From assembly GCF_018141425.1 (NCBI RefSeq), contig NZ_CP058561.1, positions 4,836,001-4,900,000 of the forward strand: a stretch of DNA of 64,000 nt, written 5' to 3'. The notes under the pieces were generated by a model. The model had not been told where the DNA came from. It worked only from the letters and a program-made list of their open reading frames with translations, and did not search any database. This DNA is from Vallitalea guaymasensis. GTDB taxonomy: Bacteria > Bacillota > Clostridia > Lachnospirales > Vallitaleaceae. The position numbers and the translations under genes are program-made. This document shows, in pieces, positions 3,610-19,937 of the stretch. Position 1 is the stretch's first letter; the number at the start of each line of letters is the position of its first letter.

Positions 3610-4050
3610 TTTTGCAACACATCCAATCTTAAATAAATATTTCTAGTTGAGTATGTTTATATTATAATATGAAATTACTTTTTAGTCCATCAATAATGTA
3701 AGATATAACTAATTAGAAAAAAATATATAAAAAAAATCTAGTAAATATAAATAATTTATAGTTGTTTTGTGATAGTTGCAGTAAAAAAATAATAGTGAAA
3801 ACTAATATTTGTGTAATATCTATAACATCTGCAAATGAACAAGTATTATGCATATAAACAGTGATTATTATTGATAAATGGACAACTTTTTGCTATAAAA
3901 CCAAATGATTTTATATATGGATATAAGTAAAATATATAATTATAACTAGGAAAGTGATATTTTTATAGTAAAACTAAACAATTTAAACTAGAGAATATTG
4001 AAGATAGCTTATATAATATACATACGTTAGCGATAAATAAAGACAGGTAG
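3610..4050. other. AT-rich divergent regulatory region
   Basis: This 441-bp gap separates the minus-strand kinase/regulator operon from the plus-strand transporter operon. It holds no credible gene: the minus-strand ORF overlapping 3963-4316 runs across the permease start and is a shadow. By position it should contain the promoters of both operons and the regulator's binding site. I could not pick out a convincing -35/-10 pair or a clear repeat. Confidence 0.5.
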
Positions 4051-5019
4051 GTGATAAAGGTAGTGAAAGCTTTAACTAACAAAAAGACTACTTTTAAAAT
4101 GACGAGCAACATTAAAAGAAATTTTGCTTTATTATTAATGATTTTACCAGGGGCAATATGGTTGATTGTATTTAAGTATTTGCCGATGTTTGGAGTTGTT
4201 ATTGCATTTAAAGATTTTAGATATTTTCCTGGTGGTTTCATTAACAGTTTATTAAAAAGTGATTGGGTCGGCTTTGATAATTTTAAGTTTCTATTCAGTT
4301 CCAGTGATGCATTCATAATAGTTAGAAATACAATATGTTATAATGCTGTATTCATACTTACTGGGACGATTCTTTCTGTAGCATTTGCAATCATGCTTAA
4401 TGAAATGACTAGAAAAAAATTAAGTAAAATATATCAGACAAGCATGTTTTTTCCATATTTCTTATCTTGGGTAATTGTTTCATATTTTGTATATACCTTT
4501 TTAAGTTTGGACAAAGGAATAGTTAATAATATCTTGGTTTCTTTAGGTATGGACAAGATATCTTGGTATTCTGAGCCTGGAAAATGGCCTTTACTATTAG
4601 TATTTATTAATAACTGGAAAAATCTTGGGTATAGTATAGTCTTTTATTTAGCTGCAATTTGTGGTATAGATAAGGCGTATTATGAATCTGCAATGTTGGA
4701 TGGAGCTACAAAATGGCAGCAGATCAAACATATTACTTTACCACACTTAAAACCATTGATCATTACACTGACAATATTAGCTATTGGAAGAATCTTTAGT
4801 GCTGATTTCGGTCTTTTCTATAATGTACCAAAAGAATCAGGACCTTTATTTCCTGTAACTAATGTAATTGATACCTATGTATATAGAGGTTTGATAAAAT
4901 CAGGTGATGTGGGTATGAGTACGGCAGCAGGTTTATTCCAATCATTTGTAGGATTCATATTGATTATGGTTACAAATGGTATTGTTAGAAAAGTAGATAA
5001 AGAAAACGCAATATTCTAG
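4051..5019 (+). CDS. Sugar ABC transporter permease, LplB-like
   Basis: This is a 322-residue integral membrane subunit with about six helices. It has the EAA loop that contacts the ATPase (YESAMLDGATKWQQIKHITLP, about 207-227) and the LPGAIWLIVFKYLPMFG segment typical of LplB/YtcO permeases. The listed GTG start at 4051 has a weak SD; an in-frame GTG at 4063 and an ATG at 4099 are alternatives. The second permease follows at a 14-base gap. No ATP-binding subunit is encoded in the operon. That is normal for this family, which borrows a shared MsmX-type ATPase (established knowledge). Confidence 0.93.
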   Translation: MIKVVKALTNKKTTFKMTSNIKRNFALLLMILPGAIWLIVFKYLPMFGVVIAFKDFRYFPGGFINSLLKSDWVGFDNFKFLFSSSDAFIIVRNTICYNAVFILTGTILSVAFAIMLNEMTRKKLSKIYQTSMFFPYFLSWVIVSYFVYTFLSLDKGIVNNILVSLGMDKISWYSEPGKWPLLLVFINNWKNLGYSIVFYLAAICGIDKAYYESAMLDGATKWQQIKHITLPHLKPLIITLTILAIGRIFSADFGLFYNVPKESGPLFPVTNVIDTYVYRGLIKSGDVGMSTAAGLFQSFVGFILIMVTNGIVRKVDKENAIF

Positions 5020-5033
5020 TGGAGGTGAAATAA

Positions 5034-5948
5034 ATGGCTAAAAATAAAAGAAAAAGAAGTTTCCATGATATTTCTAAAAAATCAGATATAATTATAACAG
5101 TATTTTTTGGCTTGTTTTCACTAATGTGTATTGTGCCATTCATAACAGTTATAATGTCATCTATAACAGATGAAGCAGTTTTGAGAGTTAATGGATATTC
5201 TTTATTTCCAGCAAAATTTGATTTTGCTGCTTATGAATATATATTTAAGACAGGTACACAGATTATAAAATCTTTTGGTGTATCAGTATTTATAACGGTT
5301 GTTGGAACAATCATTAGTGTTACAGTAACAGCTTTCTATGCTTATGCATTATCTAGAAAGTGTTTTAAATACAAGGGTTTCTTCAATTACATGGCATTTT
5401 TTACTATGTTGTTTGGTGGTGGACTTGTACCAACTTATTTAGTTGTAACAAGGGTAGTTAAACTTCAAAATACTATATGGGCCCTTATCTTACCATTAAC
5501 GGTGAATGCTTTTTATGTTATAGTTATGAGAACATTCTTTAGAACTAGTGTGCCGGATTCCATAATTGAAGCATCACAAATTGATGGTTCAGGTGAATTT
5601 AGAACATTTTTTAAGATAATACTACCTATATCATTACCTTCTGTTGCATCTATTGCTTTATTTACAACTTTAGGATATTGGAATGATTGGTTTAATGCAT
5701 TATTATATATTGATTCTGCACAAGTAACTCCTATACAGTACTTATTGATGAAGATTGAGAAACAGATGGAGTTTCTTATTCAAAATGCAAATGAAATGGG
5801 TATGAGTAGACAAGAAGTCAACAAGCTGCCTTCTGAAACGTTGAGAATGGCAATTGTAGTTATATCAACAATACCTATAGCTTGTGCATATCCTTTTTTT
5901 CAAAAGTATTTTATACAAGGACTTACAGTAGGTTCAGTAAAAGGTTAA
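5034..5948 (+). CDS. Sugar ABC transporter permease, YtcP-like
   Basis: This is a 304-residue membrane protein and the partner of the preceding LplB-like permease. Six hydrophobic segments are visible. The cytoplasmic EAA loop reads IIEASQIDGSGEFRTFFKI, and the family tail YPFFQKYFIQGLTVGSVKG, typical of YtcP/UgpE-like subunits, is intact. A strong SD (GGAGGTGA) precedes the ATG. With the downstream lipoprotein it forms an oligosaccharide importer of the CUT1 class. The cargo is not shown by sequence; mannosides are inferred from the GH130 gene in the same operon. Confidence 0.94.
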   Translation: MAKNKRKRSFHDISKKSDIIITVFFGLFSLMCIVPFITVIMSSITDEAVLRVNGYSLFPAKFDFAAYEYIFKTGTQIIKSFGVSVFITVVGTIISVTVTAFYAYALSRKCFKYKGFFNYMAFFTMLFGGGLVPTYLVVTRVVKLQNTIWALILPLTVNAFYVIVMRTFFRTSVPDSIIEASQIDGSGEFRTFFKIILPISLPSVASIALFTTLGYWNDWFNALLYIDSAQVTPIQYLLMKIEKQMEFLIQNANEMGMSRQEVNKLPSETLRMAIVVISTIPIACAYPFFQKYFIQGLTVGSVKG

Positions 5949-6020
5949 TATAAGTGTATTATTTGCTATTATCAGCAATTTAATATAGAGTTAAATTTCA
6001 ATTCAAAGGGAGGAAATATA

Positions 6021-7517
6021 ATGTTTAAAAAAAGTTTAATTTTAGTTTTAGCATTAATGCTTGCTTTATCAACAATGTTAGTAGGGTGTGGAGAAAAGAA
6101 AGATGATAAAAATCAAACAGATTCTACTAATTCAGGTTCAGACAAAGAGAAAGAAAAGCCAGTTAATCTGACTTGGTATACAATTGGTACACCTCAAAAG
6201 GATGAAGCTCTTGTAGAAGAAGAATTAAATAAATATTTATTAGAAAAAATCAATGCTACAGTTGATATCAAGATGTTTGACTGGGCTGAATACAATCAAA
6301 AAATGCAAGTTAAGATTGCTTCAGGAGAAAACTTTGACCTAATGTTTTCATGTTCTTGGGCTAATGACTTTGCTTCAAATGTATCAAAGGGTGCATTACT
6401 TCCACTTGATGATTTAATCAACGAGTATGGAAAAGGTATCAAAGATAACTTACATCCATTATTCTTAGAAGGTGCAACTATTAATGGTAAAATCTACGGA
6501 TTGCCTACTAATAAAGAATTAGGATGGCAGGCAATGTGGATCATCAATAAAGACCTAGCTGATAAATATGATATTGATGTTAGCAAAATTACTACTTTAG
6601 AAAGCTTAGAGCCATATTTACAAATTATCAAAGACAATGAGCCAGAAGTAGTACCATTGACTCTTGATAAGCAAAGTGCTCCATATATTCCTAATATAGA
6701 TGATTTCTTAGGAGCTAACTTACCATTTGGTATAAAACTTGATGATGATTCAAAGATTGTCAACACATACGAAACTGAAGAAGCAATGGAAATATTCAAG
6801 ACAATGCACAGATATTATGAAAAAGGATTCGTTCATCCAGATGCAGCAATCAATACAGTTGGAGACTACAATAAATCAGGAAATTACTTCATAGCGAAAG
6901 CACACTATCAACCATATGCAGAATTGATATGGCATGATGGAGATTTCAGTATGTCAGAGATAGCAATTATGCCTGTACATGAGCCTTATGCAAATAATAG
7001 TTCAACTCGTGGTGCTATGCAAGGTATTTCAGTAACTTCTGAACATCCAGAAAAAACAATGGAATTCTTGAATCTATTATATACTGATGAGTATGTAGTT
7101 AATCTAATTGATTATGGTATTGAAGGAACTCATTATAATAAAGTTGATGACAAACATATATCTAAGACTGAACAAGGTAAAAAATCATATGTGTTCCCAG
7201 GATTTTCTATTGGTAACTTATTCAACACTTATTCATTAGAAGGTACTCCAGATGATAAATGGGATAAATTCGAAGAATTCAACAACTCATGTATCAATGC
7301 TCCATCATTAGGATTTACTCCTGACCTATCATCAGTTAAGACTACAATGTCAGCTGTTACTAACGTGGCTGAAGAAGTAAATGCTTCTATTCAATTAGGA
7401 GTAGTTGATCCTACTGAATATGTTCCAAAAGCTATTGAGAAATTTAAAGCAGCAGGAATAGATAAAGTAATTGAAGAACTTCAAAAACAATATGATGAGT
7501 GGCGTGCAAATAAGTAA
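6021..7517 (+). CDS. Extracellular solute-binding lipoprotein, LplA-like
   Basis: This 498-residue protein captures the sugar outside the membrane. It starts with a signal peptide and lipobox LVGC, giving lipidated Cys23, followed by a Lys/Asp/Ser-rich tether. Residues about 50-420 form a bacterial extracellular solute-binding fold, and the C-terminal region (about 425-498, beginning LGFTPDLSSVKTTMSAV) matches the DUF3502-type extension of LplA proteins. A strong SD (GGGAGGAAA) precedes the ATG. It lies between the permeases and the catabolic genes. The oligosaccharide specificity is inferred from context only. Confidence 0.93.
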   Translation: MFKKSLILVLALMLALSTMLVGCGEKKDDKNQTDSTNSGSDKEKEKPVNLTWYTIGTPQKDEALVEEELNKYLLEKINATVDIKMFDWAEYNQKMQVKIASGENFDLMFSCSWANDFASNVSKGALLPLDDLINEYGKGIKDNLHPLFLEGATINGKIYGLPTNKELGWQAMWIINKDLADKYDIDVSKITTLESLEPYLQIIKDNEPEVVPLTLDKQSAPYIPNIDDFLGANLPFGIKLDDDSKIVNTYETEEAMEIFKTMHRYYEKGFVHPDAAINTVGDYNKSGNYFIAKAHYQPYAELIWHDGDFSMSEIAIMPVHEPYANNSSTRGAMQGISVTSEHPEKTMEFLNLLYTDEYVVNLIDYGIEGTHYNKVDDKHISKTEQGKKSYVFPGFSIGNLFNTYSLEGTPDDKWDKFEEFNNSCINAPSLGFTPDLSSVKTTMSAVTNVAEEVNASIQLGVVDPTEYVPKAIEKFKAAGIDKVIEELQKQYDEWRANK

Positions 7518-7539
7518 GAATTGATATAAATTTAATACT

Positions 7540-7562
7540 AAAAGGGGCTGATAGCCCCTTTT
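7540..7562 (+). terminator. Intra-operon hairpin after the binding-protein gene
   Basis: AAAAGGGGCT and AGCCCCTTTT pair around a 3-base GAT loop. It sits just after the binding-protein stop. It probably lowers read-through into the YesL/GH130 genes and protects the 3' end of the lipoprotein mRNA, a common way to make more binding protein than other subunits. Confidence 0.85.
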
Positions 7563-7599
7563 ATACTAATAAATATACTTTGAAAAGAGGTGCTTGGAA

Positions 7600-8214
7600 T
7601 TGGGAAAATTATTTTCTATAGATAGTTTATTTTATAGAATAGGAACAATCATTATTGATTTATTTTACATGAATTTGCTATGGATATTGTTTACCATATT
7701 AGGATTAGGCATTACAGGTGGAGCATCCACTACAGCTTTATACTATGTGATGTTGAGAAGAGCTGAAGATAAGGGTAATTGTAATTTCAAAGAGTTCTTT
7801 TATGGTTTTAAGAAAAACTTTAAGAAATCTACTATAGTCTGGATTGTTCTTGTATCAGTATTTTCAATAATATATGTTAACATCAATAATATCACCTTTT
7901 TTCAAAGTATAATTGGAAATACATATATGACAATGTTTCTTTTTGCAGTCCAATTGTTGGTGCTCATTGAAATATTGATTATAAGCATATATATATTTTC
8001 TTTATTGGCAATGTATGATAAACCAGTTAACCTTTTATTTAAGGTAGCATTTGTTTTAGGTAATAAGTATTTTTTTACAACATTAACTTGCTTAGCACTC
8101 ATGATAATTGTTCTTATTGGTTTATTTCATGTACCGATTATACTTTGTGCAGGTATAAGCGGTCTGATTATGCTTACATCTTTGATTATAAAAGATAAAA
8201 TTATATTAGAATAA
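7600..8214 (+). CDS. YesL-like DUF624 membrane protein
   Basis: This is a roughly 204-residue membrane protein with four to five predicted helices. It has the DUF624/YesL opening MGKLFSIDSLFYR and the GASTTALYYVMLRR segment. I prefer the TTG at 7600 over the TTG at 7594: it lies 9 bases after the AGAGG SD and gives the family's usual N-terminus. DUF624 genes often accompany LplB/YtcP transporters and YesMN regulators in Firmicutes. Their molecular role is not known; a transporter-accessory role is inferred from context. Confidence 0.88.
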   Translation: MGKLFSIDSLFYRIGTIIIDLFYMNLLWILFTILGLGITGGASTTALYYVMLRRAEDKGNCNFKEFFYGFKKNFKKSTIVWIVLVSVFSIIYVNINNITFFQSIIGNTYMTMFLFAVQLLVLIEILIISIYIFSLLAMYDKPVNLLFKVAFVLGNKYFFTTLTCLALMIIVLIGLFHVPIILCAGISGLIMLTSLIIKDKIILE

Positions 8215-8229
8215 AGGAGATAGACATCA

Positions 8230-9216
8230 ATGGGAAAATATAAGATTATTGGTGAACCATTAAAAAACATTCCATGGGAAGAAAAACCAACTGATTGTAA
8301 AGAAGTGATTTGGCGTTCTAATATGAACCCAATAATAAAAAGAGATCATCTACCAACATCAAATAGTATCTTCAATAGTGCTGTTGTTCCATTTGAAGAT
8401 GGTTTCGCAGGTGTTTTTAGATGTGATGATAAAAGAAGAGAAATGAGAATTCATGCAGGATTCAGTAAAGACGGAGTTAATTGGGATATCAACAAAGAGC
8501 CTATAAAATTCAACTGCGATATTGAACAAGTAAAAGAATTTGAATATGCTTACGATCCTAGAGTGGTATGGATAGAAGATAGATACTATGTAACATGGTG
8601 TAATGGATTCCACGGACCAACTATAGGTATAGCATATACTTATGATTTCAAAGAATTTCATCAATTAGAAAATGCATTTTTACCTTTTAATAGGAATGGA
8701 GTGCTTTTCCCTAAAAAGATAGATGGTAATTTTGCAATGCTAAGTCGTCCAAGTGACACTGGACATACTCCTTTTGGAGATATATTCTATAGTGAAAGTA
8801 ATGACTTGGAATTCTGGGGTAGACATAGACATGTAATGGCACCTAGAGGCTGGTGGCAAAGTACTAAAATTGGAGCAGGACCAGTACCTATTGAAACTAG
8901 CGAAGGATGGTTATTAATTTATCATGGAGTACTGACTTCTTGTAATGGTTATGTATATCATTTCGGAGCTGCATTACTTGATTTAGAAAAACCTTGGAAA
9001 GTAATTGCTAGAACTGAGCCTTATCTATTAGCTCCAAGAGAATTATATGAGTGTGTAGGGGATGTTCCTAATGTAGTATTCCCATGTGCAGCATTAACTG
9101 ATAGTGAAACAGGAAGAATTGCTATATATTATGGTGGAGCAGATACAGTTACTTGTTTAGCATATACTCAAGTAGATGAATTAGTAGAGTTCATCAAATC
9201 AAATTCAAAATTATAA
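8230..9216 (+). CDS. GH130 beta-mannoside phosphorylase
   Basis: This 328-residue cytoplasmic enzyme belongs to GH130, whose members mainly phosphorolyse beta-1,4-linked mannosyl-glucose, mannooligosaccharides or mannosyl-GlcNAc to mannose 1-phosphate. The five-bladed propeller motifs are clear: YDPRV with the probable proton-relay Asp109, [26 protein letters not shown] with [17 protein letters not shown] and IYYGGADT. Length is normal. It ends the transporter operon, so imported mannoside is probably cleaved here after entry. Which acceptor it uses cannot be read from these motifs, and some GH130 members are hydrolases. Confidence 0.93.
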
Positions 9217-9535
9217 AATAATTCGAGGGTCAAGTAATAGTGGGTACAATCTGCTTTTGCTTGACCCTTAAATAATAGTTTTTCTATAGTTTTTGTAAGA
9301 AAATGTCGTCTGTTATACCAGCCTTTGCAGTTGGAGTTTTAAATTGGATGAGTATTTAACTTATTAAAAGTAAGTTATTTTGATGTTATACTTAATAAAT
9401 TGTGATATATAATGAAAATATATTTTGAAAAATAAAATTTAACATTATAATCATTTGCAAGACAAATTTCTACAAAATATTTGGAATTATTGTGTTATTA
9501 TATCTGATGTCATATAATGACAGGAGGTATTAGAT
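9217..9535. other. 319-bp intergenic gap before the MFS gene
   Basis: Apart from the stem-loop at its left end this gap is AT-rich and shows no gene. A TATAAT at about 9513 is too close to the SD of the MFS gene to be a convincing -10 box. A promoter for the following operon is expected here, but I cannot fix its position. Confidence 0.4.
9226..9268 (+). terminator. Stem-loop ending the mannoside operon
   Basis: AGGGTCAAG pairs with CTTGACCCT across a 25-base loop directly after the GH130 stop. The T tract after it is weak (TAAATAATAGTTTTT), so termination may be incomplete. Confidence 0.65.
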
Positions 9536-10792
9536 ATGAGAGAAAAAATAAAAAAACATCCTTTAATTTTATTCTCAGATTTCAGAAAATTATTTATTGC
9601 TAGACTCATATCCTCTATAGGGGATAAATTTTTCTTGCTTTCGCTTTCATGGTTAGTATTATCAATGGATAATTCTAATTCTGCATTGCATCTGAGTATA
9701 GTAATGGCCGCTAACATTATACCAGTAGTTATTTTTGGACCATTCATGGGAACTATTGCTGATTGTATTAATCGGAAAACATGTCTTGTTTTGGCTGATA
9801 TAGTACGAGCTTTTTTTATGGCAATTTTAGCATTCCTTGTGTGTAATGATAATTATACCATATGGTCTTTATTTATTCTAAGTTTTTTAATAGCTACATT
9901 TACGCCGTTATTTGAATCAGCAACTAATGCATCAATTGAAATCCTAACCGATGAAGAAAGTATTTCTCAGGCTGTAGCTCTTGATTCTATGGTTTTGCAA
10001 GTATCGAATCTACTAGGGGCTTTTCTTGGGGGAGTAGTCATCTATGCTGTAGGGATCAAAGGTGCTTTTATATTTAATGCTTTGTCTTTCATCGTATCTT
10101 TAGTTATTATTCTTTTTATACATACTAATCTTAGTGTTAAGAAGAGTACTATGGCTAAAAATTTTAGACAAGAGTTCGGACAAGGGTTTAAATATATTTT
10201 AAGTATTAAACCTTTATTTGCACTTATTATTTTTTTTCTCATTTTTAACTTTTTTGTATCACCAATTGCAATATTTATACCCCTTATTGTGAAGTTTGTC
10301 ATCAATGAACAGTCAAACTGGCTTGCAATATTAGAAGGTGCAGTTGCATTGGGTTCAGTAATAATTACATTATTACTTAGTTTCAGAAATGATATTAATG
10401 AGAAGATGTACAAAAAGATTTTTATCAGTGTTCTTACTATGGGAATATCTATGAGTTTAATAGGGTTATCAACTAATAGATATATAATTGCTTTATGTTT
10501 ATTTATAACAGGTTGTACATTAGCCCATGTAAATGCTACAGCGTATGGTTTTTTTCAAAAAATTGTACCAGATTATTTAAAAGGACGTTTTTTCGCAATT
10601 CTTACTACAATGTGCTTCAGCATTATACCAATAACTTATATTATTAATGGTGCATTAACCAATATTGTCAGTGTATCCACAGTAGTCTTTTATGAAGGAA
10701 TGTTATCTGTATTAGCTGCATTCATAATAATTTTTATACCAAAGTATCAATTAGGAGGGGATAATTATGGGTTATTATATAAGGTTGATTAA
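9536..10792 (+). CDS. MFS efflux transporter
   Basis: This is a 418-residue major facilitator with about twelve hydrophobic segments. It resembles the MFS_3 group that includes EntS and macrolide exporters, with a FRKLFIARLISSIGDKFF opening and a GTIADCINRKT loop between helices 2 and 3. An excellent SD (GGAGG) precedes the ATG. Its 3' end overlaps the next gene by 26 bases, showing translational coupling. As the first gene of a GNAT-LuxE-LuxC operon, it is a natural candidate to export the pathway's product. The substrate is unknown. Confidence 0.9.
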   Translation: MREKIKKHPLILFSDFRKLFIARLISSIGDKFFLLSLSWLVLSMDNSNSALHLSIVMAANIIPVVIFGPFMGTIADCINRKTCLVLADIVRAFFMAILAFLVCNDNYTIWSLFILSFLIATFTPLFESATNASIEILTDEESISQAVALDSMVLQVSNLLGAFLGGVVIYAVGIKGAFIFNALSFIVSLVIILFIHTNLSVKKSTMAKNFRQEFGQGFKYILSIKPLFALIIFFLIFNFFVSPIAIFIPLIVKFVINEQSNWLAILEGAVALGSVIITLLLSFRNDINEKMYKKIFISVLTMGISMSLIGLSTNRYIIALCLFITGCTLAHVNATAYGFFQKIVPDYLKGRFFAILTTMCFSIIPITYIINGALTNIVSVSTVVFYEGMLSVLAAFIIIFIPKYQLGGDNYGLLYKVD

Positions 10793-11771
10793 ACCAAATG
10801 AAATTCCAGAAATATGTGATCTGATATATCAGATTTATGGAGATACATATGCATATAAAAATATGTATGACAAAAAAAACATGGAAGTACTCAATAAAAG
10901 TAAGAGACTGATATCTTTTGTAGCGATAGGTGACAATGAAGAAGTTATAGCTCATGTAGGATTAAGAATTGATGGTTCTCAAGGCGAGATGTCTGCGGCA
11001 TTTGTTAAAAAAGAGTATAGAAGACATAACATTTTATATGAATTATCAGAGAAGGTAGTAGAATATGGTAAGGAATTAGGATTAGAAGCCATATATGTTA
11101 TTTCTATAACTAGCCACATATATTCACAGAAAGTAGCTTCAAAACTAGGATTTAAAGATTGTGCATTTCTAATATCATGTATGGAGCCTATGAAATTCAA
11201 AGGTATAATAGAAAAAACTGTACGTGAATCCTTAAAAGTAACATATCTTTTCTATGATAAACCAGATTATCTAGAATTATATATACCCAGTTCCCTGCAA
11301 AAAGTCCTTAATCTCATATATACTAATCTTAGAATCAATGTCATACCTTTGCCTGAATCTGAAGAGTCAATAAGGGAAAAGAGTGAGATTAACATAACTT
11401 ATACAGATGCCTCAAATTGCTATGTAGATATTAATAGATTGGGAAAGGATTTATTGGAAGAACTTAATAAGGTAATTACCCAATATGATAATGATTTTAT
11501 ATCAAACATCTATTTGTATATAAGACTTGAAGATTCTCTGGTACATAAGTTTTATGAAGAGTTTACAAGTAGAGATTTCTTTTTTGCTGGAATAATGCCA
11601 GGAAAGAATAATAATAGATTGATACTACAGAAAGTAAAAGAAATTCATCCTGATAGCATAAAAATTAATTCATCTATTGGCAATAAGATTTTTCAGCATA
11701 TATTAGAAAGTAAAGAAAATATAACCTTAGTTAATGAAAATAAAAAACACAGATATCCTAAAGTGATTTGA
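10767..11771 (+). CDS. GNAT-family acyltransferase with extra C-terminal domain
   Basis: This 334-residue protein has an N-terminal GNAT fold (about 1-145), including the acyl-CoA-binding turn region SAAFVKKEYRRHNILYELSE and the SQKVASKLGFK helix. The C-terminal half (about 146-334) has no motif I recognise; it may be a second, degenerate GNAT-like domain. The ATG lies inside the end of the MFS gene with an AGGAGGGG SD. GNAT enzymes move an acyl group from acyl-CoA or acyl-carrier to an amine. Here it could acylate a precursor or the amine made from an aldehyde, which is inference from the LuxE/LuxC neighbours. Confidence 0.82.
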   Translation: MGYYIRLIKPNEIPEICDLIYQIYGDTYAYKNMYDKKNMEVLNKSKRLISFVAIGDNEEVIAHVGLRIDGSQGEMSAAFVKKEYRRHNILYELSEKVVEYGKELGLEAIYVISITSHIYSQKVASKLGFKDCAFLISCMEPMKFKGIIEKTVRESLKVTYLFYDKPDYLELYIPSSLQKVLNLIYTNLRINVIPLPESEESIREKSEINITYTDASNCYVDINRLGKDLLEELNKVITQYDNDFISNIYLYIRLEDSLVHKFYEEFTSRDFFFAGIMPGKNNNRLILQKVKEIHPDSIKINSSIGNKIFQHILESKENITLVNENKKHRYPKVI

Positions 11772-11788
11772 ATTGGAGGAGAATGATT

Positions 11789-12910
11789 ATGCGTACATTC
11801 AAATATATTGATGAAGTAAGTAGATTAAAACCTTTTAAGTTCAATAAAGAATATGACCAAATTTTTGTAAATGCAATGAAAGAGAATTATGAATTTCAAT
11901 TGACAAAACATCCTTATCTGAAGCATATGTTGGATTATACAAATGGAGGTTTAGATATAAACACAATTGAAGATATATATGATATACCCCCAATTTTTGT
12001 GGATTTGATGAAATATCATGACTTATGCAGTTTGCCTGAAGAGGAAATAGAATTAACCTTGACCAGTTCGGGAACAAAAGGACAAAAGACTAAGTCATTT
12101 TTTGACAAAGGTTCTATATCTCGACTAAATAAGATAGCTTCATCAGTCTTTAATGCTATAGGGTATAGTTCTGAGATACCAGTTGAGTATTTTGTGCTTT
12201 CTTATGATATAACTAAAGCAACTGATATTGGTACTAGTTGGAGTGATAAACAAATGATTGATTTGGCTCCACAAAAATCAGTCCATTGGATGATTGAATG
12301 GGATGAAGAAAGTAAACAATATATATTCGATGATGAAAAATGGGCTCGACTATTTATTGAACGAAGTAGTGAAGGACCTGTGAGATTATTAGGTTTTCCA
12401 GCTTACATGTACAAGATGGTGGAAACCATTAAAAAGATACATAAACCTGTAAAAGTTGATGAAAGAAGTTTTATACTCGCTGGTGGAGGATGGAAAAATC
12501 ATCTTGGAAAATCAATGTCATTAAAAGAATTTGGAAGTTACATGGAGAAAAATATAGGATTGAAGCCTAGCCATATAGGGGATACATATGGGTTAGCAGA
12601 GCATGGGATTCCTTATTGTTCTTGTGAATATGGACATTATCATATTCCACAATATAGTCGTGTAAGAGTATGTGACCCATTGACGCTAGAACCAGTTCCT
12701 ATGGGAGAAGAAGGGATTCTGCATTTACTTACACCTTATAACATTGCCCAACCTAATTTATCTCTTCTTTCAACAGATATAGTGACATTAGGGGAAAATT
12801 GTCCATGCAATAGAGAAGGTACTTATATCAAGAGTATTCGTCGTGGAGGAAAGAAAAAACACAAAGGTTGTGCCATTGCAGCATTAGAGATACTTAAGAA
12901 TTCAAAATAA
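11789..12910 (+). CDS. LuxE-like acyl-protein synthetase
   Basis: This 373-residue member of the adenylate-forming superfamily has the LuxE domain. In luminous bacteria LuxE activates a fatty acid as acyl-AMP and carries it on a Cys before reduction by LuxC. Visible signs are the nucleotide loop LTLTSSGTKGQ, the DTYGLAEHGIP segment and a GCAIAALE tail whose Cys (about 361) sits near the place of the acyl-carrying Cys of Vibrio LuxE (about 362-364). I chose the ATG at 11789, 8 bases after GGAGGA; the upstream TTG at 11768 overlaps the GNAT stop and has no SD. No luxAB is nearby, so the product serves something other than light. Confidence 0.88.
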   Translation: MRTFKYIDEVSRLKPFKFNKEYDQIFVNAMKENYEFQLTKHPYLKHMLDYTNGGLDINTIEDIYDIPPIFVDLMKYHDLCSLPEEEIELTLTSSGTKGQKTKSFFDKGSISRLNKIASSVFNAIGYSSEIPVEYFVLSYDITKATDIGTSWSDKQMIDLAPQKSVHWMIEWDEESKQYIFDDEKWARLFIERSSEGPVRLLGFPAYMYKMVETIKKIHKPVKVDERSFILAGGGWKNHLGKSMSLKEFGSYMEKNIGLKPSHIGDTYGLAEHGIPYCSCEYGHYHIPQYSRVRVCDPLTLEPVPMGEEGILHLLTPYNIAQPNLSLLSTDIVTLGENCPCNREGTYIKSIRRGGKKKHKGCAIAALEILKNSK

Positions 12911-12958
12911 CGTTAGATTAGATATAAACACAATTTTGAAAGAAAGGAATAGTGTATC

Positions 12959-15571
12959 ATGATAAAAAATATTATATGGGGAAAAGATATAAATGAATCA
13001 TTAGATGAGAAGTTGATAGAATCAAATTTCTCTGATGAAAAGTTGCAGAGTATGAAAGATGAGTTTTGGAAGACACCGATAGATGATATATTGTATGTAT
13101 TAGAACAAACAGGTCAATTAATGACTGATAAAAATAAGAAATATTATAATAGATCAATGGAAATATTGCCTGAACTTCTAGGTTATTCCCCTAGTATGGT
13201 TAGATTAGGTATTTCTATGTTGCAGGACGTATTAAGTATAGATAGTCTATCAAAGAGATTAGATGTGTTAAAAGATTATCATTCTATAGATTATCCTTGT
13301 GATATAGATAATAATATTACCTATGCTTTACCTGTAGGTAGTGTATGCCATATAGCTGCTGGAAATATATTTTTGGGAGCTATTGATTCCTTACTATATG
13401 GAATTGTAACAAAAAATATCAATATAGTGAAAGTATCAAAAAAGAGTCCTGATTTTGCTTACATATTCTTTGAAGCATTGAAGGAAGCAGATAAGAATAA
13501 TATATTGATACCTTATATATCAATTATATATTGGGATAGGATGAATCAATCATATATTGAAGATTATATGAAGCAACACTGTGATATCATCTTACTGTTC
13601 GGCGGCAGAGAAGCAGTTCTAAACTACAAAAATGGTACATCCCATAAAGTTAATGTTGTCGCTTTTGGTCCAAAACTTAGCTTTGGTCTAATTACTAAGG
13701 ATTTATCATACGAAAGATTAGAAGAGATCGCAATGGGTTTTGCAAAAGATATAGTAATGTGGGAGCAGAATGCTTGTACAAGCTGTCAGAATATATTTAT
13801 TGAAGAAGATGCCAATACTCAGAGATTCATTGAATTACTTAATGAATCACTTGAAATACTAGGGGTCACATATGAAAATGAGTATTTGACTATTGATGAA
13901 AAATTGGAGATTAGAAGAACACGTTCTCTCTACAGATACGAAGAATATGAAGAAAAAGCAGAAGTCATTGAAGGTAAAAGAGGTCATCACACTATAATAA
14001 TCAATCATTCAAAGGATATACAGGATTCACCATTATTCAGAACGATATATATTAATATAATAAAAGACTATAAAGATATATTAGAGGGAAATATTAATGG
14101 ATTACAATATTATATGTCCACTATAGGTGTTGCGGCTAATAATAATTACCAGCAGATAATTGATGATTTTTCCATTCTGGGGGTATATCGTTTTTGTTCA
14201 CCAGGAAATATGAGTCTTTCTTCAGAAGAATCCTCTTTACATGATGGAGTTAACATTACATCTTGCCTTATTAGGCAAATAGGGTTTGAAGATCTACCAT
14301 ATTCCAGCATTGGTTTATCCAACTGTAATAAGAATAAAAAAGAAGCAATTGTATTATCAAAAATCAACGCTATCTTAAAACAAGCATTGAAGTCAACATA
14401 CTATAAAGAATTGTATAAAGATATCCAGATACCTGTAAAATCCTTGGAAGACTTTAGTAAATTGCCTGTACTTACTAGTAAAGCACTTATTAGTCAATCT
14501 CCTAATATGCTTACAGATAAAAATGAGAACAGCTACGTTTTTTCATCTGGAGGTTCATCAGGAAAAGAGAAATTTGTATGGTATAGTGCAGAGGAATTTT
14601 CCAAGTCCAAAGAAGTATTTGGTATTGGATTCAAAAATATAGGTATAACCAAGGATGATTTTGTAGTCAATTATCTGAAAGCTGGTAGTCTATGGACAGC
14701 TTTCTTGGCTACCAATAAGGGACTAGAAAAAACAGGATGCAGAATATTATCATTAACGGCTAATCAGTGTAAAGAAGACAGTATTAATATTATAAAGAAA
14801 CTTAAACCAAATGCAATCATGGGTATACCTGGCACTTTAATACTACTGGCTCAAAAAGCAGAAGAATTAAATGAAGATATTACTTTTGAAAAGATATACT
14901 ATAGTGGTAATCATATGGCAGAATCAGGAGAAAAGTATCTAAAGAAAGTATTCAAGTGCAGTGTTATCAAGTCTTTTGGATATGCAGCTGTTGAAACCGG
15001 ACCAATAGGTTACCAGTGTCCACACTGTAAACCAAGTGAATATCATGTTTTTGAAGATTGGTGTTATGTAGAAAAAGATGAGGATAACAATATTTTAATA
15101 ACAGACTTAGAAAGAAAACTGCATCCAATAATCAAGTATAAATTAGGTGATAATATTGAGTATGTAGAAGGAGAGTGCAGTTGTGGTAATAAGTCTCCAA
15201 AAATCAGACTCATATCAAGAAATGATGATGTTATCAGGTTGAATGATACGGATTTATATTTATATGACATAGATCAGGTTATTAAAAAGAATGATTATCT
15301 ATCACCATTCTATCAAATTGAGATAGATAAAGATGAAGGAACATTGATTAAGATACATATTCGTATAGAAACTATACAAGATATGGAGTGTAACGAAGAA
15401 TTTGTTTCTAATGTACTGGACTCAATTAAAAAACAGGCGAAAGCTCTAGGAAAATTCAGTAGTAAAAATCTGATAGGGCATGTGTATCTTGAATTACTAG
15501 AACCTGAAACTATCAAACGTAATTTTAGAACTGGAAAAATACGTAAAGTAATAGATAATAGATATAACTAA
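12959..15571 (+). CDS. LuxC acyl reductase fused to PaaK-like adenylating domain
   Basis: This is an 870-residue two-domain enzyme. Residues about 1-450 are a LuxC acyl-CoA/acyl-protein reductase, with a PVGSVCHIAAGNIF nucleotide-binding region and the probable catalytic Cys273 in NACTSCQ. Residues about 465-870 form a PaaK/LuxE-like adenylate-forming domain: the phosphate loop SSGGSSGKEK (529-538), the FGYAAVETGP segment, two Cys pairs (CPHC and CSC) that may bind zinc as in PaaK proteins, HPIIKYKLGD, and a C-terminal TGKIRK lysine motif. Ordinary LuxC is about 480 residues and stands alone. The fusion plus separate LuxE implies two activation steps and one reduction to an aldehyde. The substrate is unknown. 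Confidence 0.88.
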   Translation: MIKNIIWGKDINESLDEKLIESNFSDEKLQSMKDEFWKTPIDDILYVLEQTGQLMTDKNKKYYNRSMEILPELLGYSPSMVRLGISMLQDVLSIDSLSKRLDVLKDYHSIDYPCDIDNNITYALPVGSVCHIAAGNIFLGAIDSLLYGIVTKNINIVKVSKKSPDFAYIFFEALKEADKNNILIPYISIIYWDRMNQSYIEDYMKQHCDIILLFGGREAVLNYKNGTSHKVNVVAFGPKLSFGLITKDLSYERLEEIAMGFAKDIVMWEQNACTSCQNIFIEEDANTQRFIELLNESLEILGVTYENEYLTIDEKLEIRRTRSLYRYEEYEEKAEVIEGKRGHHTIIINHSKDIQDSPLFRTIYINIIKDYKDILEGNINGLQYYMSTIGVAANNNYQQIIDDFSILGVYRFCSPGNMSLSSEESSLHDGVNITSCLIRQIGFEDLPYSSIGLSNCNKNKKEAIVLSKINAILKQALKSTYYKELYKDIQIPVKSLEDFSKLPVLTSKALISQSPNMLTDKNENSYVFSSGGSSGKEKFVWYSAEEFSKSKEVFGIGFKNIGITKDDFVVNYLKAGSLWTAFLATNKGLEKTGCRILSLTANQCKEDSINIIKKLKPNAIMGIPGTLILLAQKAEELNEDITFEKIYYSGNHMAESGEKYLKKVFKCSVIKSFGYAAVETGPIGYQCPHCKPSEYHVFEDWCYVEKDEDNNILITDLERKLHPIIKYKLGDNIEYVEGECSCGNKSPKIRLISRNDDVIRLNDTDLYLYDIDQVIKKNDYLSPFYQIEIDKDEGTLIKIHIRIETIQDMECNEEFVSNVLDSIKKQAKALGKFSSKNLIGHVYLELLEPETIKRNFRTGKIRKVIDNRYN

Positions 15572-15575
15572 GTCA

Positions 15576-16505
15576 TCAACCATGTTGTTGATACAAACCA
15601 TATTGCTGTCGATAAGAAGTAGGAGTCAATCCTACTTTTTTTCTGAATAAAGTATAAAAATAGGTATCATTATCAAAGCCACAGGCGTATGCAATTTCAT
15701 TAATTGGCATAATAGTACTTAGAAGCATTTCTTTAGCCTTGGAAATTCGCAGGTGGACTAGATAATCAATAGGACTTTTACCAACTATCTCTTTAAATAT
15801 TTTACAAAGAAAATTAGGGGATAGATTGAACATTTTTGATAGCTGTTTAAGGGTAATCCTTTTATTGAAATTGTTATCAATGTAATCTTTCAATTCCATA
15901 ATATTATCATAATTACTAGAGATTGAACGAATATTTTTTTTTCTTTTATTTATAGGCTGTAATTCAGATAAGAGACTATTCATTATACTATAAAGATAAG
16001 TTTTGCCTATCAATTGAAAGTCTTCATCGTTTCTTATAAAACTCTGGAAGCAGTCCTTCATTATTTTATTATAATATCCATAATCTTCTACTGTAGTTCT
16101 ATAAGGTAGTTTATTCAAAAAATCTGTTTTACTTGCTTTATCATACATTGTTTCAAGTAATAAGTTTGTTGGATTTTCAAAAGGATCATTACTATTGTAG
16201 AAGTTCATGTTATTTACATCAAAGATACTATCAAAAATGATAATAGTACAATGATATGCTGCTACACCTTGAACTACCATACCAGGCTTTCTGTAGAATA
16301 TATTACCTTTCTTAGCAAGTAATTTCTCTCCATTGGTAATGATGTATCCTTTATCGCTATAATGGATTAATTCTATTTCATACCATTTGACAACTCTTTC
16401 CTGAAATACTGTTCCAGCAGAAGGACATGTTTTTCTTGTCATTCCACCTATAGAAATGATGTATGGATTAAAGTTTTCATAGCTATATTTTTTCATTTCA
16501 ATCAC
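15576..16505 (-). CDS. AraC-family transcriptional regulator
   Basis: This is a 309-residue regulator. Residues about 1-190 form a cupin-like sensor domain, and about 205-309 hold two helix-turn-helix units with FNLSPNFLCKIFKEIVGKSP and ACGFDNDTYFYTLFRKKVGLTP. It is divergent from a URO-D family gene 122 bp away and convergent with the LuxC gene, with only 4 bp between stops. The most likely target is the divergent URO-D gene. Its cupin domain suggests a small carbohydrate-like or aromatic ligand, which is family knowledge and not read directly. Confidence 0.9.
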   Translation of the reverse strand: MIEMKKYSYENFNPYIISIGGMTRKTCPSAGTVFQERVVKWYEIELIHYSDKGYIITNGEKLLAKKGNIFYRKPGMVVQGVAAYHCTIIIFDSIFDVNNMNFYNSNDPFENPTNLLLETMYDKASKTDFLNKLPYRTTVEDYGYYNKIMKDCFQSFIRNDEDFQLIGKTYLYSIMNSLLSELQPINKRKKNIRSISSNYDNIMELKDYIDNNFNKRITLKQLSKMFNLSPNFLCKIFKEIVGKSPIDYLVHLRISKAKEMLLSTIMPINEIAYACGFDNDTYFYTLFRKKVGLTPTSYRQQYGLYQQHG

Positions 16506-16627
16506 CCATATATATTATACCATAATTGAGTAATATAATTAAGTTAAAAAGTAATATATTTTATTAATAAGAATAAGTAATTATGTTAATATACAGTTAA
16601 ATAGATTAATTAGGAGGGAATAGCAGG

Positions 16628-17707
16628 ATGACAGGATTTGAAAGAATCAGTAATATAATTAACCATAAACCAGTGGATAGATTACCTGTTTTTGAGCATT
16701 TTTGGGAAGATACATATACTGAATGGAGAAATAAGGGTTTTATCAAGAAAGAAGAGAGCTTTGAAGATCATTTCAATTTGGATATGCAGAATTATTGGAC
16801 TTTCAATATGATTGCTGATCTTGATTTTGAACAAGAAGTTATAGAAGAAACAGAGGAGACTATTTTAGTCAAGGATGGTAATGGAGCGTTTTTGAGAAGA
16901 CATAAAATACATGATTCTACACCAGAACATGTAGACTTTACTGTAAAAAACAAAGCTGGATGGGAAGAACATATTAAACCTTATCTCACAATAGATGAAA
17001 GAAGAATAGATTTTGAAGGCTATAGAAAAGCAAAAGCTGAGGCAAAAAGAGCCAATAGATTTTTTTGCTGGTCAGGGCTCAATGTTTTTGAATTAATGCA
17101 TCCTGTATGTGGACATGAATATATGTTGATGGGAATGGTTCTAGAGCCTGAATGGATTCAAGATATGGTTATGACCTATAGCAGATTGGTAGTAGAATTA
17201 CAGAAAATACTATTTGAAAGAGAAGGATATCCAGATGGAATATTCTATTATGAGGATATGGGATTCAAAGAAAAACCTTTCTTCTCACCGGATTTCTATA
17301 AAAAGCTTATTCAACCAGGACATATATATACTATTGATTATGCTCATAGTAATGATATTCCTGTTATAATGCATTCTTGTGGATATGTTGAACCATTGCT
17401 TCCTAGTATGATTGAATCAGGCATAGACTGTTTGCAAGTTATTGAAATTAAGGCTGGTATGGATTTATTGAAGCTGTATGAAGAGTTTGGCGATAAGATT
17501 GCATTCATGGGAGGTATAGATGTGAGAAAACTCTATACCAATGACAAGAAAATTATTGACCAAGAACTTGAAAATAAGATACCTAAGCTTAAGAAGAAGT
17601 TTTCCTATGTAATTCACAGTGACCATTCTATTCCTAAGACTGTTGATTACAGTACTTTTACATATTATTTAGAAAAAGCTACAAAGTTAGGTACTTATGA
17701 TTGCTGA
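16628..17707 (+). CDS. URO-D superfamily methyltransferase-like protein (copy 1)
   Basis: This is a 359-residue TIM-barrel protein of the uroporphyrinogen decarboxylase superfamily. The motif MHSCGYVEPLLP (about 245-257) has the His-x-Cys zinc ligands seen in corrinoid methyltransferases such as MtaA. The later segment VIHSDHSIP replaces the usual third Cys ligand region. No haem pathway genes are near, so true HemE activity is unlikely. The SD is good (AGGAGG). It is divergent from an AraC regulator. A methyl-transfer or decarboxylase role on an unknown small molecule is the most that can be said. Confidence 0.8.
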   Translation: MTGFERISNIINHKPVDRLPVFEHFWEDTYTEWRNKGFIKKEESFEDHFNLDMQNYWTFNMIADLDFEQEVIEETEETILVKDGNGAFLRRHKIHDSTPEHVDFTVKNKAGWEEHIKPYLTIDERRIDFEGYRKAKAEAKRANRFFCWSGLNVFELMHPVCGHEYMLMGMVLEPEWIQDMVMTYSRLVVELQKILFEREGYPDGIFYYEDMGFKEKPFFSPDFYKKLIQPGHIYTIDYAHSNDIPVIMHSCGYVEPLLPSMIESGIDCLQVIEIKAGMDLLKLYEEFGDKIAFMGGIDVRKLYTNDKKIIDQELENKIPKLKKKFSYVIHSDHSIPKTVDYSTFTYYLEKATKLGTYDC

Positions 17708-17742
17708 ATATAAAGTTATAAAGTCAAGTGGTTATACAGTTC

Positions 17743-18588
17743 TTAAGCATTAAAAATTCGTCTATTGCCTTCTCTAAACTCTTTTGGTGGCAATAGATTT
17801 TTCTTTTTGAATAAGGAATAACAATAAGAAACATTATGAAAACCTACTTCATATACTATATCTAGTATATCCATTTTGGTGGTTAAGAGTAATATTTCCA
17901 TTTTTTCAAGTCTTAACTGATTTATCCATTGGGCTGGAGTCTGATTATAGTATTTCTTCATTTGTCTAGAAAGATGTTCATGGGACTTTTCTGAGATTTC
18001 AATGAATCTTTTTAATCCTATCACAAAATTATCCTGTTTTTTCATTTCTTCTTTTGCAGACTGGAGCCATCCAGGTATAATTTCGTTGTTCATAGCACTT
18101 AATTTATTGGTATTGTATATAAATATATAATCGTAAATAATACTCTGAAAATAATATTCTTGAACTTCCGTTGGCATTTGTTTAATTTTACCTAGCTTAC
18201 TGAAAATACTATTCCATTGGTAATCCAAGGCGTAGACACTAGGTATACCACTATTGGAGTTTTCTTGCCTTATTCTATTAAAAAATGATTTGCACTTATC
18301 ATCCAGCTCTGAGAAATAAAATGCTAGATTGGTTATTGTAGTTTCTTTATCCTTTTTTGCTGAAAAACAATGTGTGTCATCTGGATAGATGAATTGTATG
18401 GATTGAACAGGTAAATAGTGTTTTTCATCATCGATATAGTGGATAAATGTACCTTTCTCTACAAAAAACATTTCATAGAAATCATGGGAATGTAAATTAC
18501 TTTTGATATTGGAACTGAATAATGATTTGGCAACATAATATTTTTCATCATCTTTCAGAAAATCTTTTAATAATAAGTGGTCATGCAT
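17743..18588 (-). CDS. AraC-family transcriptional regulator
   Basis: This is a 281-residue AraC regulator. The first 140 residues are a cupin domain with HSHDFYEMFFVEKG, a RmlC-like His-rich strand. The last 100 residues are the paired helix-turn-helix ending in VGFHNVSYCYSLFKKKNLLPP. It lies 35 bp from the end of the preceding URO-D gene and is divergent from the second URO-D gene by 143 bp, so it most likely controls that gene. It is distinct in sequence from the AraC protein at 15576, so the two pairs are parallel units and not a recent duplication. Confidence 0.9.
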   Translation of the reverse strand: MHDHLLLKDFLKDDEKYYVAKSLFSSNIKSNLHSHDFYEMFFVEKGTFIHYIDDEKHYLPVQSIQFIYPDDTHCFSAKKDKETTITNLAFYFSELDDKCKSFFNRIRQENSNSGIPSVYALDYQWNSIFSKLGKIKQMPTEVQEYYFQSIIYDYIFIYNTNKLSAMNNEIIPGWLQSAKEEMKKQDNFVIGLKRFIEISEKSHEHLSRQMKKYYNQTPAQWINQLRLEKMEILLLTTKMDILDIVYEVGFHNVSYCYSLFKKKNLLPPKEFREGNRRIFNA

Positions 18589-18731
18589 ATAAAGAACACC
18601 TCAACTAATTTTCTTTAATAATATCAATATACCATAATGATTGTCAATATGTAATGAGAAAAAATATCTGCTTTAAGTTAAAATGATATCAGCTAAAAAA
18701 TAGTTAATTCTATAACTCATAGGAGGATATT

Positions 18732-19877
18732 ATGAAGGGAAGAATCACAGACCACAAAAATAGAAATTTAGCCAAATTACATGAAGATGTAGCATTTGGA
18801 AGAGCTAATGGTGAAATTATCTGGCAGCCAAGGATTCAATGCTGGTTAACAGATAAACAATTCGCTGGTGAAAAATTACCTGAGCCTTATGAAGGAAAAA
18901 CAAAGCCCGAAATTTATAGAGAACTTGGTTGTTCAGCTAGGGTATATGAGTATAATGAAAGTTTTTATCCTATTGATGGACCTGGTATTAAGAGATATGA
19001 AAATAAATTAAGTGAAACAAGAACTGAACATGTCATAGATACTCCAGTGGGTAAAGTGACATTAGTAACAGAAAAGACGCCTTCCAGTCCTCACGCAATA
19101 ACTAAAAAATGGTGGGCTGAAAACAAAGAAGATATAAAAGTCTTTACATATATAGCTGAAAATGGTGATTGGGGATGGAATGAAGATTATTTCCAAAAGA
19201 CCAAGAAAGAGTGGGGAAATCTAGGTGCTCCAACAATATTTATGCCAAGGGTCAATGTACAGAATCTATATATTGATATTATGGGTGTAGAAAAAGCTGT
19301 ATATGCATTAATGGACTACGAGGCAGAAATTGAGAGATATTTTAAAGCATTAGACGAATATCATAGTAGAATGATTCAATGTATCAATAAATCTCCTATC
19401 AATATTATTAATTTTGGAGATAACCTGCATTGTGGAACATTACCACCATATTACTTTGAAAAATATGTTCAGCCATCTTATTTGGAAAGATGCAAACAGC
19501 TGCATGAGGGTGGTAAGTTTGTATATTCTCATTGGGACGGGGATACAAAAGCACTTTTACCATTTGCCAAAACATGTGGATTAGATGGAATCGAAGCAAT
19601 AACGCCTAAACCACAAGGAGATGTTACTTTAGAAGAAGTAAAAGAAGCATTAGGTGATGATATCTATCTTGTAGATGGTATAGCTGCGGTACTATTTGAC
19701 GAAATATACCATGAAGAAGAATTGATTAAACAAACTGAAGATCTAATTAGAATGTTCAAGGATAAATTAATTCTTGGTATATCAGATGAAATTTCATCAA
19801 CTGGTGATATTGAAAGAGTTAAGACTGTTGGTAGAATAGTAGACGATTACAACGCATCATTAAATATTAACAAATAA
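18732..19877 (+). CDS. URO-D superfamily protein (copy 2)
   Basis: This is a 381-residue member of the uroporphyrinogen decarboxylase-like superfamily. It shares the barrel layout of the copy at 16628, but the metal-ligand region reads FVYSHWDGDTKALLPFAK (about 260-277), with His but no neighbouring Cys, and the C-terminus has LILGISDEISSTGDIERV. The two copies are therefore distant paralogues. The SD is AGGAGG. The gene stands alone downstream of its AraC partner and ends at a strong terminator. Function is unknown; a methyltransferase lacking the classic zinc site, or a decarboxylase, is possible. Confidence 0.75.
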   Translation: MKGRITDHKNRNLAKLHEDVAFGRANGEIIWQPRIQCWLTDKQFAGEKLPEPYEGKTKPEIYRELGCSARVYEYNESFYPIDGPGIKRYENKLSETRTEHVIDTPVGKVTLVTEKTPSSPHAITKKWWAENKEDIKVFTYIAENGDWGWNEDYFQKTKKEWGNLGAPTIFMPRVNVQNLYIDIMGVEKAVYALMDYEAEIERYFKALDEYHSRMIQCINKSPINIINFGDNLHCGTLPPYYFEKYVQPSYLERCKQLHEGGKFVYSHWDGDTKALLPFAKTCGLDGIEAITPKPQGDVTLEEVKEALGDDIYLVDGIAAVLFDEIYHEEELIKQTEDLIRMFKDKLILGISDEISSTGDIERVKTVGRIVDDYNASLNINK

Positions 19878-19882
19878 ATCTG

Positions 19883-19937
19883 CTTCGCACCCACCTATAT
19901 CTACTTAAATAGTAGAATAGCAGGTGCGAAGTTTTTT
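19883..19937. terminator. Bidirectional terminator between convergent genes
   Basis: CTTCGCACC pairs with GGTGCGAAG, followed by TTTTTT on the plus strand, with a second small stem (CTACT/AGTAG) in the loop. It separates the URO-D gene from the convergent gene at 19942. Confidence 0.85.

Follow-up and report, generated by a model that had tools for sequence, protein, structure and literature searches.

A four-gene operon of Vallitalea guaymasensis as a candidate single-ligase pathway to exported peptide aldehydes

What is made by a set of genes that combines two enzyme families of luminous bacteria with an acyltransferase, an adenylating ligase and an exporter? The question is raised by four genes at positions 9536–15571 of a 64,000 nucleotide stretch of the Vallitalea guaymasensis genome (contig NZ_CP058561.1, positions 4,836,001 to 4,900,000; hereafter the window). 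The genome, a single contig of 5.6 Mb, encodes at this place an MFS exporter, a GNAT protein, a LuxE-type synthetase and a LuxC reductase fused to a PaaK-type ligase. We propose that the four genes rather probably constitute a compact peptide-aldehyde pathway of the leup kind, which would work independently of a nonribosomal peptide synthetase (NRPS) and whose product would be exported. The unit is composed of the following features.

9536–10792, forward strand: MFS exporter, 418 amino acids, first gene of the unit (Pfam MFS_3, 9.1e-38)
10767–11771, forward strand: predicted GNAT N-acyltransferase, 334 amino acids (Pfam Acetyltransf_1, 4.6e-9)
11789–12910, forward strand: LuxE-type acyl-protein synthetase, 373 amino acids (Pfam LuxE, 5.9e-37)
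12869–12871, forward strand: candidate acyl-carrying Cys361 of LuxE (alignment with the C-terminal Cys of LuxE in PDB 7xc6)
12959–15571, forward strand: LuxC/PaaK fusion, 870 amino acids in a single open reading frame (both halves recognised by domain profiles)
13073–14254, forward strand: LuxC acyl reductase domain, residues 39–432 of the fusion (Pfam LuxC, 6.8e-59; alignment with 7xc6)
13775–13777, forward strand: candidate acyl-accepting Cys273 of the fusion, in the LuxC half (alignment)
14318–15562, forward strand: PaaK-type adenylating ligase domain, approximately residues 454–868 of the fusion (NCBIfam PaaK-type, 2.7e-33, below the cut-off; ligase trees)

The Pfam family calls for the four proteins all exceeded the curated cut-offs. 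When the reading frames were derived again, the tight packing reported in an earlier note on this DNA was recovered: the transporter gene lies beside the biosynthetic genes and overlaps the GNAT gene by 26 bp, and the later gaps are 17 and 48 bp. The mechanical start of the LuxE frame was a TTG at 11768, and an in-frame ATG preceded by GGAGG is found at 11789. Judged by eye, the ribosome binding sites were good before the first three genes and weaker before the fourth.

Another member of the genus (genome G005, locus L044) has these four genes in an identical arrangement, behind the same sugar-transport and GH130 genes. Protein identities between the two were 97% for MFS, 87% for GNAT, 95% for LuxE and 92% for the fusion, with ratios of nonsynonymous to synonymous substitution (dN/dS) of 0.12, 0.25, 0.09 and 0.12, respectively; two upstream genes, taken for comparison, gave 0.05 and 0.09. 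The four genes are under purifying selection, and their grouping exceeds chance, given this conserved set in the second genome. The nearest named relative at the locus was the metagenome-assembled genome of Vallitalea sp. McD1.25 (L023), with a fusion protein 92% identical. Nucleotide identity with G005 covered the window from 3882 to 15583 and picked up again at 19892, so that the segment 15584–19891, with an AraC gene at 15576–16505, had no counterpart beside the operon in that genome. In genome G004 the same upstream genes were followed by two other open reading frames (680 and 182 amino acids) in place of the four genes, and then by relatives of window genes 17743–18588 and 18732–19877. 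Because the downstream stretch is unmatched in G005 and the four genes are missing in G004, we restrict the unit to the four genes and reject the flanking genes as members of the operon.

At the level of the individual proteins, LuxE aligned with the LuxE of PDB 7xc6, its C-terminal cysteine included, and Cys361 was kept in 7 of 7 aligned rows. The LuxC half aligned with the LuxC of the same structure, and Cys273 was invariant across the 7 aligned rows. In Lux systems both cysteines have catalytic roles. A predicted reductase for aldehyde formation is present, at the level of families, as the LuxC domain with Cys273. The ligase half resembled PaaK-type enzymes of known structure; residues 479–868 were closest to PaaK-type ligases in NCBIfam (2.7e-33), and AMP-binding_C_2 was recognised by Pfam at the C-terminus (1.7e-6, residues 769–868). 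The structure predicted for the fusion was of poor quality (mean predicted local distance difference test, pLDDT, 42.6) and was left unused. The GNAT model had a mean pLDDT of 64.9, and roughly half of it could be matched to GNAT structures, with TM-scores by query of 0.31–0.40 among the 50 matches listed. Sequence-profile matches covered the N-terminal half, and in our judgement the C-terminal half showed GNAT-like secondary structure in the model; the protein probably consists of two GNAT-like halves. For the exporter, the nearest NCBIfam entries were TIGR00900 and EntS, each below its cut-off. These family assignments uphold, at that level, the enzyme logic of the earlier note, namely acid activation, reduction to an aldehyde, amine acylation and export.

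Is the gene set confined to this genus? GNAT, LuxE, LuxC/PaaK and an exporter, normally accompanied by a second, stand-alone PaaK-type ligase, were found in three phyla: in one further genome of the genus, fully in one Clostridia genome and partly in three others, on three Streptomyces-type plasmids and on two Salmonella plasmids. The neighbourhood search in Clostridia that the earlier note had suggested located the set in G003, G005 and G782, and partly in three more genomes. The order was LuxE, LuxC/PaaK, MATE, GNAT, PaaK in G003, of the same genus, and the Clostridia genome G782 contained the complete LuxE, LuxC/PaaK, MATE, GNAT and PaaK. In G692, G750, G782 and G940 the GNAT gene adjoined a ligase matching the operon-ligase profile at 2e-95 or better, and GNAT relatives adjoined ligases in G003 and Salmonella as well. 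The G692, G750 and G940 loci were on short contigs (6.7, 3.6 and 3.9 kb, respectively); G692 additionally had a MATE gene and the end of a ligase. Partial GNAT-profile matches with stops were observed in G835 and G840. The full-length fusion was rarer. Among 196 relatives (1e-20), 19 had a match, which spanned the whole fusion in the window genome and in G005, was divided between one fused protein and one stand-alone ligase in G003, and limited in the others to the ligase half or to the LuxC half (the latter in G009 and G055). Among 398 sampled Bacillota genomes, 18 matched the fusion profile (1e-40), full length only in the window genome. The GNAT profile had matches at 1e-12 in 7 of the class's 291 genomes; the window genome is one of the 7.

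Matches to the fusion (1e-5) were obtained in 187 of 72,556 plasmid records, and seven of the 187 were inspected; the match covered at least 80% of the fusion in two records, both from the same S. cattleyicolor strain. PaaK, MFS, GNAT, LuxE and LuxC/PaaK followed one another in that order in S. cattleyicolor pSCAT, Streptomyces sp. BHT-5-2 p1 and Streptomyces sp. NBC_00158, the proteins of the last serving as queries to locate the sets of the first two. These operons share with the window the four families, their order and the fusion architecture; they differ by the extra stand-alone PaaK gene in first position, by identities of 18–30% and by fused ligases devoid, like the other fused ligases in the alignment, of an N-terminal stretch that the window ligase half retains. 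The shared order is weak evidence, being one of the 24 possible orders of four genes. The fused architecture was also seen in L044, L046, L101 and the Salmonella records. The two Salmonella enterica plasmids carried LuxE, LuxC/PaaK, PaaK and then GNAT, which was annotated whole in CP054717 and was present only as a shorter open reading frame in CP053580; a frame of 121 amino acids upstream had, on visual inspection, the look of a truncated MFS gene. Searched with the window GNAT at 0.01, the same plasmid records gave one match, the Salmonella operon. Plasmid records of Niallia and Pantoea showed separate LuxE and LuxC genes and no GNAT or PaaK matches.

The earlier note could match the combination to no described pathway. 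This no longer holds, as such sets occur in three phyla and agree with the printed description of NRPS-independent leupeptin synthesis, given in papers citing Li et al. 2020. According to PMC11212599, leupeptin of X. bovienii is made without NRPS by separate AMP-dependent ligases and a reductase. The leupABCD genes are placed at 315,353–321,183 of CP011636.1 (5,831 bp), with a transporter adjacent, in PMC8283571, and PMC10548850 sets the leup pathway against NRPS routes to peptide aldehydes. Cultures of S. cattleya DSM 46488 contained, according to PMC12235219, a family of leupeptins and acetylleucylleucine, called the leupeptin precursor; pSCAT of NRRL 8057, the same strain, carries the gene set. 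By these printed descriptions, leupABCD of Gammaproteobacteria resembles what is predicted of the window operon in its AMP-dependent ligase chemistry, its aldehyde-making reductase, its adjacent transporter and its independence from NRPS, and differs by having several ligases instead of one and by belonging to another phylum. Together, the four genes of the Salmonella operon measure 5,759 bp, close to the length printed for leupABCD, and the published leup primers had at least 6 mismatches to the Salmonella operon regions. By description, a known pathway with largely this gene set exists, from which the window operon departs by its smaller number of ligases and by its divergence. The leupeptin kind of pathway is already known; what would be new is a Clostridia version reduced by one ligase. 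The peptide aldehydes made by NRPS and livipeptin (PMC10548850) fall in the same product class of small acylated peptide aldehydes. They are built by an NRPS, or by a tRNA-dependent enzyme working with a carrier protein and a reductase domain, and the operon has none of these. No condensation or carrier domain was recognised by Pfam in the four operon proteins, and an NRPS reading of the operon was dropped.

For the reactions and substrates we infer the following scheme. The GNAT protein would acylate an amino acid at its amino group. The PaaK-type ligase half would adenylate the N-acyl amino acid and couple a second amino acid to it. LuxE would then activate the N-acyl peptide at its carboxyl terminus, hold it on a cysteine and deliver it to the LuxC half. 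The latter would accept the peptide on Cys273 and reduce it to the aldehyde, and the MFS protein would export the peptide aldehyde. By analogy with leupeptin, the exported product is probably an N-acyl peptide aldehyde acting as a protease inhibitor, and with a single ligase it would most likely be an N-acyl dipeptide aldehyde.

The families themselves could suggest another product. LuxE and LuxC are known from fatty aldehyde synthesis, and the earlier note had favoured fatty or aromatic compounds: a carboxylic acid, fatty or aryl, would be converted by LuxE together with LuxC (or with the ligase half) to the aldehyde or the alcohol, for conjugation by GNAT and export by MFS. Both proteins indeed match the fatty-acyl families of PDB 7xc6, share with this luminous-bacteria complex the LuxE-to-LuxC acyl transfer families and keep both cysteines. 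Separate LuxE–LuxC pairs without GNAT are also common in the order, where a LuxE search at 1e-10 gave 37 matches in 32 of 295 genomes: they made up 18 of the 20 regions inspected. Against this reading, GNAT and the operon-type ligase accompany the fusion and not the separate pairs. GNAT was present in both regions with the fusion and matched in none of the 18 without it; the GNAT profile contained these two positives, and the window queries alone gave the same pattern. PaaK-profile matches in 7 of the 18 were the LuxE proteins themselves. Compared with the luminous complex, the operon has a ligase half and GNAT added and LuxD missing, and both enzymes fall below the NCBIfam equivalog cut-offs (143.6 bits against 750 for LuxC, 101.3 against 550 for LuxE; for PaaK, 115.2 against 700). 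The luciferase family (Bac_luciferase, PF00296) had zero matches in the whole genome, the control giving matches in 10 of 14 genomes, which agrees with the earlier remark that luxAB is missing. Because of the missing luciferase and of the company of GNAT and ligase with the fusion, the fatty acid or luminescence reading was set aside as the principal one, and we regard a fatty or aryl acid reductase as unlikely.

The position of the ligase half points in the same direction. In both ligase trees (12 operon and 26 ordinary PaaK rows in the first, 16 and 21 in the second), the window domain grouped with the operon ligases, apart from ordinary PaaKs, with support of 100/100. Such a grouping, together with a carrier strain that makes peptide aldehydes, gives no indication of a fatty or aromatic product. 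The G782, G692 and G750 ligases fell among the stand-alone operon ligases in the second tree. In the best tree the window ligase branched before the split between fused and stand-alone ligases (98/93); placement in either branch was not rejected by the approximately unbiased test (p-AU 0.129 and 0.123), and we do not claim a pre-duplication ligase. Operon LuxEs clustered at 81/98 in the larger LuxE tree; the smaller tree, with fewer operon rows, left the window protein unresolved among operon and separate LuxEs.

Could a second ligase nevertheless take part? The other complete operons encountered here have two, and one carrier strain reportedly makes acetyl-Leu-Leu-argininal (leupeptin). A tripeptide aldehyde might then be formed here with a ligase encoded elsewhere or by one ligase acting twice, and two further PaaK-type genes do exist in the genome. 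Their matches to the operon ligases are weak (1.7e-8 and 2.0e-8), they group with ordinary PaaKs (L091 in the smaller tree, L090 in both), and G005 has kept the same single-ligase set; a two-ligase route of the leupeptin type therefore appears quite improbable.

Several observations weigh against the peptide-aldehyde pathway that we propose. The operon contains no second ligase, and the genome only the two weak PaaK-type matches elsewhere. The P-loop region of GNAT is atypical in the alignment (RRHNIL at residues 85–90), for which reason GNAT catalysis stays only predicted. The window GNAT query missed the Streptomyces GNATs, which are GNATs by annotation and Pfam. A second GNAT profile matched 8 of 398 Bacillota genomes, and around 6 GNAT places in 5 of these (the check leaves out G415, G521 and the second place in G428) LuxE, LuxC and PaaK all went unmatched; GNAT was rejected as a sole marker of the pathway. 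Identities are low even to G003 (GNAT 23%, LuxE 31%, fusion 22%); over G003 and Salmonella together they amount to 22–23%, 29–31% and 21–22%, to the Streptomyces sets to 18%, 29–30% and 20–22%, and to the sets of other phyla as a whole to 18–22%, 29–30% and 20–22%. The window LuxC lies outside the clade of the other operon LuxCs, and a one-clade topology was rejected (p-AU 0.001), in a test set after a tree had been seen and with long branches and uneven residue composition that may mislead. A fair reading would be that the fusion arose independently or that the reductase half was exchanged. Leupeptin and the operon of S. cattleya are joined at the level of the strain. The proposed link to leup is one of gene set, strain and printed description.

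The single ligase, the low identities and the LuxC outside the clade suggest a smaller product, and perhaps an independent fusion. The fuller claim, that of a four-gene, single-ligase route to N-acyl dipeptide aldehydes in anaerobic Clostridia whose fusion arose independently of the two-ligase leupeptin-type operons, is put forward tentatively, as possible and no better than that. A literature search that covered few subscription papers gave a Klebsiella paper for leupeptin biosynthesis in Clostridia, PMC10548850 for leupeptin-type gene clusters in Firmicutes and, among the papers listed for peptide aldehydes, none on Vallitalea, which is weak evidence. It is also conceivable, and in our opinion very improbable, that the aldehyde is an intermediate and that a pyrazinone or another derived signal is exported, with a role other than protease inhibition. 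Leupeptin-derived pyrazinones signal in Klebsiella (PMC11480411); the N-acyl cap would presumably have to be removed beforehand.

With an exported peptide aldehyde as the favoured product, an operon of unknown function acquires a testable product class. Peptide aldehydes inhibit serine and cysteine proteases. Leupeptin-type gene sets are present in Clostridia, and the one-ligase version could reveal which ligase makes which bond. Such operons may be overlooked, we expect, by cluster finders centred on NRPS.

Some minor features were observed around these genes and their relatives. Downstream of the operon, window positions 15576–19877 contain two AraC-family regulators alternating with two URO-D-family proteins, a block partly present in G004. 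The genome is rich in NRPS, with 21 condensation-domain matches, all outside the window and many in large open reading frames; matches are located at about 1743000–1756000 and 3060000–3097000 of G000:C1. Long GNATs were encountered in L101 (9608–10990), L099 (2049–3593), L100 (691–2142), L102 (905–2404) and L113–L115, the last three showing the same length pattern away from these operons. They carry an N-terminal extension of approximately 150–200 amino acids, which by eye resembles an anti-sigma-factor ATPase fold and had no Pfam match in L101, the one tested. Separate LuxE and LuxC genes with no GNAT match characterise L045 and L047–L063, adjacent in 17 of these 18 regions and apart in L062. 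The scanned neighbours of L045, L047, L048 and L049 showed no partner common to all four. In L062 (G009:C12:20001-40000), downstream of an AgrB gene, a single run from 6860 to 18298 includes LuxE, a LuxD-like acyltransferase (NCBIfam LuxD, 3.5e-26, below the cut-off), an asparagine synthetase A/AsnRS-like protein, a 732 amino acid protein with no Pfam or NCBIfam match, a YcaO protein (TIGR03266, 2.7e-84, below the cut-off), a methyltransferase, a DHH protein and LuxC.

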